Assembly: GCF_037975245.1 (NCBI RefSeq)
Contig: NC_092569.1
Location: 32,058,668 to 32,122,667, forward strand
Length of the DNA stretch: 64,000 nucleotides
Direction of reading: 5' to 3'
DNA from: Apostichopus japonicus
Taxonomy: Eukaryota > Echinodermata > Holothuroidea > Aspidochirotida > Stichopodidae
The notes under the pieces are model-generated. The model saw only the letters and a program-made list of their open reading frames with translations, was not told the origin of the DNA and did no database searches. This document shows, one piece after another, positions 21,301 to 22,412 of the stretch. The position numbers and the translations under genes were made by a program. Numbering within the stretch: position 1 is the first letter of the stretch; every line of letters begins with the position of its first letter.

Positions 21301-22412
21301 TCTAATTCATTTTTGTTTTGTGAGGAGATGGTTTTTGCAGCAAATTGCAATTATTCCTTTGTTAGCAATAATAACAGGTTAAATTACTCAGGACTAGCTT
21401 TTTCAATCATACCCTTGCTTTCCTAAAATGACACAGTCCAGCCCCCCCCCCCCCCCCCGCCACGGCGTCCATCCTCAATCAGCTTCGAGAAGAGAATAAG
21501 TTAAACAATGTGGTACAAAATAAAACAAGCAAAGAGTTGAATAAATGTTAACTTGATAACTTGCAAATTATGCAGACTATGCAAATTAAATTACACATAC
21601 TATTATTCAATAAATGATAAGATTTGACACCGAAACACACAAGAAGACAATAACTCGAGTTTTGATAGACTAGGAAACCACTCAGTTGTGGACTTAGAGA
21701 AATAGTATACATATATAATGAAACAATATTATAGTAAAACAATGTCAATAAATATAACATAAAGAGCGATATTAACAACACTAGTAACCAAACTCTAGTT
21801 TAGTTTCCCCATTTGTATGTGGCTCGTGCTGTGGCACTGTATTTCAAACGAAACAAAAACAAAATTGTATAATAACTTCCTTGCAAAGACAAAATACCTA
21901 CTCATGTATCTTAAATTTTGAACACAAAAAACAACAAAATACGCAGAATTGACGTTTTCATCTTGGTAGAACAAAAACGCACTGCCCTCTAACGTGTATC
22001 CGATGTTGGATTCTTTCAAAATTTATAAATTGACCAGTTTATGTACTCTTTCTCGTTTGATGCAGATCATGATCGTTTGTCTGGTAGCAACAATAAACAA
22101 TTCAGTACAAAAGACCGGGACTACGATGGATGGAGCAGCTACGACTGTGCTGAGAAACACAGAGGAGCCTGGTGGTTCTACGATTATTATGACTGTGAAC
22201 GTGATTATTATTTGTGTCGGTCATCCTGTCCCAGTCATAGTTATTATTGTGAAATGTTTCCCGTTGGCAGCGATAACTGTGTTCAATGCGCTAATGCTCA
22301 CCTCAACGGAGACTACGACGGCTATACTCGAGGAACGAACATCTTCTGGAATGATCTTAGTGGAAACGATTGTGGTATACGATACACAGAGATGAAAATA
22401 CGGCCGGTATAG
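6250..22412 (+). CDS. Gene 1: secreted protein with partial FBG - TIL - three E-like modules - complete FBG
   Basis: Ten exons join in frame: 6250-6315, 14494-14524, 15571-15743, 16098-16362, 17239-17450, 17890-18099, 18692-18901, 19502-19807, 20070-20331 and 22066-22412. The total is 2,082 nt, or 693 aa plus stop, with GT/AG at every junction. The order is a hydrophobic leader, an FBG domain ending after its second exon, a TIL domain, three Cys-rich E/EGF-like modules and a complete C-terminal FBG domain. FBG domains of secreted FReDs typically bind sugars or acetylated ligands through the P subdomain; only the second FBG here has one. A role as a secreted recognition or adhesion protein is inferred from the family. 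The start is the ATG of a signal peptide that is identical in gene 3. Transcript evidence is needed for the exon chain, but phases, domain logic and the paralogue all agree. Confidence 0.85.
6335..8315. repeat. Tandem duplication (~1 kb x 2) within intron 1 of gene 1
   Basis: The segment 6,335-7,312 is repeated at 7,328-8,315. For example, the phrase AATATTAAATTATGTG and its surroundings recur about 1,000 bases later, and both copies end with a similar stretch containing AAAGCAACATCT. Unit 3 carries one copy (about 43,765-44,760). This partly explains why intron 1 is 8.2 kb in gene 1 and 6.0 kb in gene 3. No coding content was found. Confidence 0.85.
8316..12586. other. Remainder of intron 1, no gene seen
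   Basis: This is AT-rich intronic sequence, collinear with about 44,760-48,060 of unit 3 apart from indels. The segment 11,760-12,830 has no counterpart in unit 3, where a deletion joins the flanks near 48,065. Open stretches up to about 90 codons occur on both strands, but none has splice context, a recognisable domain or conservation of frame between the two units. Confidence 0.6.
12587..13783. mobile_element. Nonautonomous TIR element, possibly hAT-like (in intron 1)
   Basis: The ends carry an imperfect 12-base inverted repeat, AGTGTTGCGCCG at 12,588-12,599 and CGGCACAACACT at 13,771-13,782 (11 of 12 match as inverted repeats). Subterminal stretches rich in CCGATAT/ATATCGG lie at both ends. 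I see no convincing target-site duplication and no transposase domain. Unit 3 keeps only the right part (about 48,085-49,056) because its left end was deleted. Assignment to hAT rests on the general look of the termini and is tentative. Confidence 0.5.
14494..14524 (+). CDS. Gene 1 exon 2: 31-nt microexon after the leader
   Basis: The exon is flanked by a pyrimidine-rich TTTTATTACACAG acceptor and a GTACGT donor. It encodes IIFSAEGRSS plus the first base of a Gly codon, moving from phase 0 to phase 1. Gene 3 has the same exon at 49,762-49,792 with one substitution changing Phe to Val. It joins the signal peptide to the FBG exon and probably contains or adjoins the cleavage site. Confidence 0.7.
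15091..15297. repeat. Long AAT/ATA trinucleotide microsatellite
   Basis: There are 196 uninterrupted bases of the ATA repeat (15,091-15,286), followed by a short imperfect tail. The array lies in intron 2 of gene 1. The collinear site in gene 3 (about 50,360-50,385) has only a short A/T-rich stretch, so the expansion is specific to unit 1. Apparent poly-Ile or poly-Leu reading frames here are artefacts of the repeat. Confidence 0.97.
15571..15743 (+). CDS. Gene 1 exon 3: FBG domain 1, N-terminal (A) part
   Basis: The exon encodes 57 residues after a phase 1 start. Typical FReD landmarks are visible: RDCKEV opening the domain, SGVYLIKP, FEAYCNND and GGWT at the exon end. Two cysteines expected to pair in the A part are present, plus one extra. 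An NNTS stretch gives N-glycosylation sequons. The exon leaves in phase 0 at GGWT|VLQRR, the classical FReD intron position. Confidence 0.85.
16098..16362 (+). CDS. Gene 1 exon 4: FBG domain 1, central (B) part
   Basis: The exon encodes 88 residues starting VLQRRRSDSVNFNRSW, with the FReD signatures FRNGFG, GSEFWIGN, LTNQKRYQLRIDF and YVTYDEFRI. The acceptor is an unusual TTGAAG, whereas gene 3 has TTGCAG. The donor is GTAAGT, phase 1. In an ordinary FBG domain the next exon would supply the Ca-binding and ligand-pocket P subdomain. Here the next exon encodes a TIL domain, and no P-subdomain exon is present in the 876-base intron that follows. Confidence 0.85.
17239..17450 (+). CDS. Gene 1 exon 5: TIL (trypsin-inhibitor-like) domain
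   Basis: The sequence runs from IPEWCPANEIFSNETCERTC through QCVCVGEYLRQQ to CIPLNQCNC, the ordered cysteine pattern of a TIL domain with eight core cysteines. Proteins of the zonadhesin, tectorin and IgGFc-binding type use TIL domains followed by E modules, as here. An NET sequon is present. The exon enters in phase 1 from exon 4 and leaves in phase 0 at SVLG|GTCAGT. Whether it inhibits any protease is unknown, and a structural role is equally likely. Confidence 0.82.
17890..18099 (+). CDS. Gene 1 exon 6: E/EGF-like Cys-rich module, copy a
   Basis: The exon encodes 70 residues, phase 0 to phase 0. It begins EGDFYVNVRC, contains the pattern YQCSDHATCAERNGVRKC then YCNPNYQGDGVTC, and ends NCFVDDKGSVLG. 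The GDG..C ending is like the E/EGF-like segments that follow TIL domains in zonadhesin-type proteins. Eight cysteines are present. It is flanked by TAG and GTCAGT. Confidence 0.78.
18692..18901 (+). CDS. Gene 1 exon 7: E/EGF-like Cys-rich module, copy b
   Basis: The exon is 70 residues, phase 0-0, beginning EGHFYINSSC with the same eight-cysteine layout as exon 6 and the same SVLG|GTCAGT donor. It differs from exon 6 in the first third and has AERSGVRKC in place of AERNGVRKC. It has no direct positional counterpart in gene 3, where the middle modules are reduced. Confidence 0.78.
19502..19807 (+). CDS. Gene 1 exon 8: E-like module c fused to the N-terminal part of FBG domain 2
   Basis: The exon encodes 102 residues. 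The first half is a third E-like module (EGLFYINSRC to GDGVTC). Without an intron it continues through TRRAQDCYDLYVSG into an FBG A part ending VYCEMESNRGGWT, at the standard FReD intron position with donor GTGAGT, phase 0. The intron-less join between module and FBG fixes the order of the domains. Confidence 0.85.
20070..20331 (+). CDS. Gene 1 exon 9: FBG domain 2, central (B) part
   Basis: The exon encodes 87 residues opening VIQRRSSASVNFYLGW, with KNGFGNKNQDHWLGNKYIH, LRIDLRD and STFSINNEADKFRLSVG, all typical FReD B-part features. The donor is GTGAGT in phase 1, the same phase as exon 4. It is only moderately similar to exon 4, so FBG1 and FBG2 are old duplicates of each other. Confidence 0.88.
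22066..22412 (+). CDS. Gene 1 exon 10: FBG domain 2, P subdomain with Tyr/Cys-rich insertion, and stop
   Basis: The exon encodes 114 residues and TAG. It contains FSTKDRDYDGW (Ca-site Asp residues), DCAEKHRGAWW, then a 41-residue segment with six cysteines, then HLNGDYDG, FWNDL and the terminal RYTEMKIRPV. In typical FBG domains only a few residues separate GAWW from the Cys and HLNG of the ligand pocket, so the segment is an insertion beside that pocket. Total cysteines in the exon are even (eight). A poly(A) signal follows 247 bases after the stop. Confidence 0.88.

Follow-up and report, generated by a model that had tools for sequence, protein, structure and literature searches.

The stretch of DNA considered here, called the window in the following, comprises 64,000 nucleotides of the holothurian Apostichopus japonicus (positions 32058668-32122667 of its contig, in a genome of 671.6 Mb in 35 contigs) and contains three related genes on the plus strand, g1, g2 and g3. 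In each gene the exons follow the same order, namely the B part of a first FBG domain (FBG1-B), a TIL-like exon, the TILa/EGF exons, and then the A, B and P parts of a second FBG domain (FBG2), and it is the P subdomain that carries the element of interest, a long cysteine-rich insertion. The last exon of g1 (22066..22412) encodes the calcium-site motif DxDxD, the insertion, an anchor cysteine and the stop codon, and its counterparts in g2 and g3 lie at 29977..30335 and 56005..56351. As read from the translation and from alignments, the insertion spans the region from GAWW to HLNG, with 41 residues in g1 (22176..22298), 43 in g2 (30087..30215) and 39 in g3 (56115..56231) and six cysteines in each. 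These lengths and cysteine counts confirm what an earlier reading of the same DNA (the original prediction) had reported, and the motifs it had quoted, CERDYYLC, CTRDYSASYC and CSYSYCQYYVC, are present in the insertions.

An insertion shared by the copies of a tandem array

The last exon of g1 is preceded by a GCAG acceptor directly before 22066 and its frame stays open up to the stop codon at 22412, and the last exons of g2 and g3 likewise have a GCAG acceptor and an open frame to the stop. When the parts of the second FBG domain of g1 are joined, the Pfam profile Fibrinogen_C (PF00147) scores 181 bits (cut-off 22), the best-matching stretch ending at the insertion. The last exon therefore looks real, given the splice acceptor, the open frame and the score of the joined domain. 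The closest sequence relative in the PDB is FIBCD1 (3.2e-49), and by Pfam and PDB sequence search the array genes share with FIBCD1, ficolin and tachylectin-5A the same FBG domain, including the aspartates of the calcium site and the two cysteines of the pocket disulfide. Where these proteins have only a handful of residues in front of LNG, the array genes have 31-43.

A Fibrinogen_C profile search of the genome yielded at least 169 matches (150 of 2734 candidates scored), and most of those listed lie on the contig of the window itself. The same exon series recurs in the neighbourhood, in one gene on the left side (g0, within 40 kb) and in three on the right (g4, g5 and g6, within 160 kb); a further 30 kb on the left (31988668-32018667) contained no match. 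Last exons are readable in six of the seven array copies, the place of the last exon in g6 reading N. The insertion has 39 residues with six cysteines in g0, 31 with four in g4 and 33 with four in g5, and is thus found in 6/6 readable array copies as compared to 0/11 among the other FBG P exons examined in this genome, which are a small part of its many FBG genes. Eight of these 11 were recognised among 14 FBG loci examined (L001-L008 and L032-L037, with six misses) and three adjoin the array; seven were included in a MAFFT alignment and four (L004, L032, L033 and L035) were read by eye. In each of the 11, WW is followed by three or four residues before a cysteine is reached, in agreement with the statement of the original prediction that ordinary FBG domains have few residues at this place. 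Two exons adjoining the array, at 32268620 and 32274619 (L027 and L028), have 11 residues from WW to LNG where seven are usual, and in one of them a second cysteine lies in between. They are possible small relatives of the loop, although they fall far short of 31-43 residues.

Six cysteines within 41 codons would be expected with a probability of about 0.0008 at the cysteine rate of the exon flanks and of about 0.02 at that of the other, cysteine-rich exons of these genes, but the recurrence of the insertion in six copies is stronger evidence than either value. That the insertion is an artefact of faulty assembly, of pseudogenes or of a misread frame appears very improbable: the array is repetitive, the last-exon place of its seventh copy reads N and the exons were called from genomic sequence, yet in six copies a splice acceptor is followed by a frame that stays open as far as the stop codon, and in the exon flanks omega, the ratio of nonsynonymous to synonymous change in the codon model, is 0.52-0.58.

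Divergence and exchange of the insertion

How does the variation of the insertion compare with that of the surrounding DNA? Divergence was computed for the six readable copies g0-g5 of this one genome, giving 15 pairs which, as the copies are related, are not independent of each other. Mean pairwise DNA divergence is 0.363-0.365 in the insertion, 0.138 in the part of the exon before it and 0.137 in the part after it, 0.187 in the preceding intron (about 500 bp) and 0.172 in the 3' flank. The insertion differs more than the intron in all 15 pairs, which bears out the claim that its variation exceeds that of neighbouring introns. The excess is most evident for g3 and g5, with 0.455 in the insertion against 0.092 in the intron and 0.060 in the 3' part of the exon, and for g0 and g5, the insertions of which are 40% apart and the introns 9%. 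In a window scan the mean of the insertion (0.363) exceeds that of each of 682 further overlapping windows of equal length, the highest of which is 0.246. Misalignment was considered as the cause of the excess and rejected, since the minimal edit distance, which does not depend on the codon alignment, agrees: for the insertion it is larger than the mean of the intron windows in 15/15 pairs and larger than their maximum in 11/15. As in hypervariable immune-type gene families, variation is focused on the candidate binding site and lies above that of neutral DNA. The original prediction had also held that the residues and codons flanking the insertion hardly change; this holds only in part, as the exon flanks of the three window copies differ by 14-23% at the DNA level; the lowest value in the array is 3%, in the 3' part of the exon for the pair g0-g3.

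Phylogenetic comparison shows that the insertion behaves like a cassette exchanged between array copies. The intron tree joins g3 with g5 (0.958), the insertion tree joins g4 with g5 (0.999). In bootstrap samples g4 is nearest to g5 in 1000/1000 cases for the insertion, in 0/1000 for the intron and in 64/1000 for the part of the exon that follows the insertion. However, the same affinity appears in 537/1000 samples for the exon part before the insertion and in 638/1000 for the 3' flank, which implies that the tract of exchange may extend into the exon upstream of the insertion and that the whole region is a mosaic. In addition, the 3' flanks of g3 and g4 are only 0.6% apart, their introns 20% and their insertions 33%. 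Read from divergence, this is a sign that the gene ends (3' flanks of g0, g3 and g4) may have been homogenised recently, with the loop spared.

Pocket, cysteines and the proposed recognition loop

Where would the insertion lie in the folded domain? In FIBCD1, according to the sections of the structural paper that were available, the disulfide 401-414 and the cis peptide Asn413-Cys414 form the acetyl site, Tyr405, His415, Tyr431 and Trp443 surround the methyl group, and residue 413 touches ligands (PMC3908420). Homology to this site supports the placement of the insertion at the edge of the pocket in which FBG domains bind their ligands. The equivalent of the pocket residue Cys414 is the second cysteine of the insertion in the MAFFT alignment and the last one in the HMMER alignment; both place the insertion at the pocket. 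The last cysteine keeps the spacing of Cys414, C-x3-[HN]LNG, in 6/6 copies. The aspartates of the calcium site (391/393/395) and Cys401 are kept in 6/6 copies in the MAFFT alignment with FIBCD1, so that the calcium-site aspartates and the cysteine pair of the pocket disulfide by which an FBG domain is known are present.

The number of cysteines in the insertion is even in all six copies (6, 6, 6, 6, 4 and 4), and the rest of the exon contributes two in every array copy, at the FIBCD1 positions 401 and 445. The latter, an anchor cysteine near the C-terminus, is found in 6/6 array copies as opposed to none of 10 other exons (the seven aligned plus L032, L033 and L035 by eye, the tail of L004 being unreadable), and it likewise sets the array genes apart from FIBCD1, ficolin and tachylectin-5A. 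An even number together with an accompanying extra cysteine is what disulfides would predict, and in this respect the proposed disulfide bracing of the loop gains support. If Cys401 pairs with the last cysteine of the insertion, the cysteine at 445 must pair with a cysteine of the loop. Beside 401-414 there would then be three bonds in the six-cysteine copies and two in the four-cysteine copies. Furthermore, a CxxC motif and a PxG preceding it are kept in all six insertions.

The residues that line an acetyl-lectin pocket (Tyr405, His415, Tyr431, Trp/Tyr443) are not retained as a set in the array genes. Position 405 is His in 6/6 copies and 415 is Ala, Gly or Thr. Position 443 is Tyr in five of the six and Asn in g1, and position 431 is not Tyr in the MAFFT alignment, while HMMER puts a Tyr there in g1, so that compared with FIBCD1 and its relatives Tyr405 and His415 are lost and Tyr431 is lost in five or six of six copies, depending on the alignment. 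His415 and Tyr431 are both absent as well from five of the seven ordinary FBG exons that were aligned, only L002 and L003 keeping them; the loss is thus not special to insertion-bearing genes, and it may be older than the insertion and unconnected with it. The idea of an ordinary acetyl-binding lectin that bears an additional loop is not supported by the pocket residues, which the ordinary neighbours mostly lack too. As judged from these positions, the loop does not adjoin an intact acetyl pocket of the canonical kind.

Taken as a whole, the interpretation of the original prediction, a pocket-side, disulfide-braced, hypervariable recognition loop, is partly supported. The reading preferred here is that the insertion is a germline-encoded, disulfide-braced, hypervariable and exchangeable recognition-loop cassette in the FBG P subdomain, to which we assign, on sequence evidence, a probability of slightly above one half (about 0.52). 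The host would be a multi-domain FBG-related protein composed of a partial FBG domain, a TIL-like module, 1 to 20 TILa/EGF modules and a second FBG domain. By homology the loop is located at the place that the acetyl pocket takes in ficolins, tachylectin-5A and FIBCD1. It is most likely tied down by the cysteine at 445, with the other cysteines presumably pairing inside the loop, as their parity and co-occurrence suggest, and is probably exposed. Loop differences between the array copies arise by exchange between paralogues, whole-codon insertions and deletions and fast substitution, the scaffold changing less. The proteins are presumably secreted, and the most likely role of the loops would be to provide a set of secreted FBG proteins with varied surfaces for binding glycans, of microbes or of other origin, or proteins, possibly in immunity.

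Several observations weigh against this reading. Besides the dependence of the 15 pairs, the affinity of g4 to g5 outside the insertion, the disagreement of the alignment methods about the equivalent of Cys414 and the loss of pocket residues in ordinary genes as well, a structure prediction of the last exon alone for three sequences reached a predicted local distance difference test score (pLDDT) of only 33.8 and was not used. In addition, the ratio of nonsynonymous to synonymous divergence (dN/dS) does not bear out the expectation that it exceeds 1: this is the case in a single one of 12 computable pairs, and for the insertion omega is estimated at 0.35-0.40 under the codon model. For the three window pairs dN/dS is 0.43, 1.00 and 0.73. 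The original prediction had named a low dN/dS combined with a lack of excess variation as the outcome that would speak against it, and only the low dN/dS came out. Nei-Gojobori dN in the insertion is larger than the intron distance in 15/15 pairs, but dS is mostly higher still. In the codon model by region omega is lower in the insertion than in the flanks (0.52-0.58) and the neutral rate in the insertion is about six to eight times the flank rate. Similarly, in a permutation of columns that compares the insertion with the remainder of FBG2 in the three window copies, both the nonsynonymous proportion pN (p 0.0002) and the synonymous proportion pS (p 0.005) are raised. The synonymous divergence of the insertion is therefore raised along with the nonsynonymous one, and positive selection on point mutations (dN/dS > 1) was rejected as the sole account.

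Codon use adds to these objections. In the three window insertions Tyr is encoded by TAT and TAC in a ratio of 26:2, as compared to 34:48 in other coding sequence, and in all six copies in a ratio of 51:14 as compared to 17:21 in the exon flanks, g4 and g5 using more TAC. Since TAT is so strongly preferred over TAC, changes in runs of triplets may account for much of the loop's variation. Such a process could be all there is, if a TAT-rich tract that slips and mutates fast were tolerated because the loop has little function and only the frame is kept. The TAT bias and TAT runs, five in a row in g4, fit this explanation, as do length changes in whole codons, an omega below 1 together with a raised rate of synonymous change, and a kappa of about 0.4, which is unusual. 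It leaves aside, however, that an even number of cysteines, the anchor cysteine and the CxxC and PxG motifs are each kept in 6/6 copies, and the low omega of the loop speaks for constraint, an omega of 1 fitting 4 to 6 log units worse; we consider it rather unlikely as the full explanation. Codons one step away from Cys make up 60% of the non-Cys codons in the insertions (117/194) as compared to 32% in the flanks (138/435), an excess that stems largely from the richness in Tyr and Ser and whose significance is overstated by the pooling of related copies.

The composition of the host protein suggests another possibility, namely that the Tyr- and Cys-rich loop serves cross-linking or protein contacts in a mucus, gel or matrix, with the TILa/EGF modules forming a stalk of variable length. 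The genes do encode TIL-like, TILa and EGF modules, with 1 to 20 TILa/EGF exons per gene, the loop is rich in both residues, and the matrix proteins tenascins and MFAP4 are among the sequence relatives in the PDB. Yet divergence focused on the loop and exchange between paralogues would have no evident use in a cross-linker, and the calcium site is kept, so that a structural or adhesive role seems improbable to us.

FBG-domain gene families are expanded in invertebrates. To our knowledge, the seat of binding diversity in these families is mostly unknown. In the array described here, the excess variation is concentrated in one short exon segment at the place of the known ligand pocket, and this segment seems to pass from one gene copy to another. 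Biomphalaria FREPs are also FBG proteins and are studied as diverse invertebrate immune molecules, but they are described as carrying IgSF domains, whereas here none scored in the three g1 peptides scanned, all from 15.6 kb onwards, and the diversity lies in a loop of the FBG domain. For Apostichopus japonicus itself, expanded and tandemly duplicated FREP genes, 21 of them in one cluster, were reported and linked by the authors to regeneration (PMC5638244); the cluster is alike in having FBG genes in tandem, and the available part of that paper does not describe a loop insertion or its variation. A lipopolysaccharide-induced FBG gene is known from Holothuria glaberrima (PMC2702171) and FBG proteins occur in the coelomic fluid of Holothuria tubulosa (PMC12119288), and in the sections available neither report describes such an insertion. 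A literature search aimed at such an insertion found none named in titles or in the beginnings of abstracts, most subscription journals lying outside its scope.

In design, the loop resembles the knob of bovine antibodies with an ultralong third complementarity-determining region of the heavy chain (CDR H3), as both consist of a Cys-rich loop on a constant scaffold (PMC5994613, available in part). Many codons one step from Cys, a varying number of cysteines and length changes by whole codons are further features that the two have in common. The two systems are not homologous: the bovine diversity is somatic and attributed to the action of AID on one D segment, while here copies differ in the germline. 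If the loop sets binding, a loop-on-scaffold design similar to that of cow antibodies would have arisen in an animal through germline differences.

Remaining exons and flanking sequence

All remaining exons lie on the plus strand. In g1 the first FBG domain is encoded by an A exon (15600..15743, the start being approximate) and a B exon (16098..16362), followed by the TIL-like exon (17239..17450), two TILa-EGF exons (matching over 17905..18063 and 18707..18859), a single exon that contains the third TILa-EGF unit together with FBG2-A (19517..19810, extent of match) and the FBG2-B exon (20070..20331). For the other two genes coordinates give the extent of the match. In g2 these are FBG1-B (25087..25338), the TIL-like exon (26206..26412), the first TILa-EGF exon (26870..27028), the second TILa-EGF unit with FBG2-A (27440..27739) and FBG2-B (27997..28233); in g3 they are FBG1-A (50811..50897), FBG1-B (51266..51517), the TIL-like exon (51924..52133), TILa-EGF with FBG2-A (53170..53466) and FBG2-B (53727..53963). 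The TIL-like exon is named after its cysteine pattern, which we take to be that of a TIL module; in the TIL-like and TILa stretch the Pfam models TILa and EGF_3 scored and TIL did not.

The A part of the first FBG domain was recognised in g1 and g3 only, and no P exon was found between the FBG1-B exon and the TIL-like exon in the array genes. FBG1 (15600-16362 in g1 and its counterparts elsewhere) is thus a partial FBG domain with A and B parts and without P; its B part is 90-95% identical at the protein level among the copies. The number of TILa/EGF exons, counted as tblastn matches in 32033062-32250549, is 8, 3, 2, 1, 20, 9 and 1 for g0 to g6, and several of the units in g0 are identical at the protein level, which points to recent expansion.

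First exons and a signal peptide of the array genes were not identified in the upstream sequence. The 15 kb upstream of g1 (1-15100) and the sequence upstream of g3 (37547-50380) mostly align with 81-87% identity, which indicates that the duplicated unit is far longer than the exons found; no 5' exon was clearly recognised within the aligned stretches. A long run of ATT/TTA-like triplets at about 15100-15350 leaves both strands open (poly-Ile and poly-Leu), and just 3' of g3, at 57219-57692, frames on the minus strand contain a short tandem repeat that is TLTGTLT-like in one of the frames.

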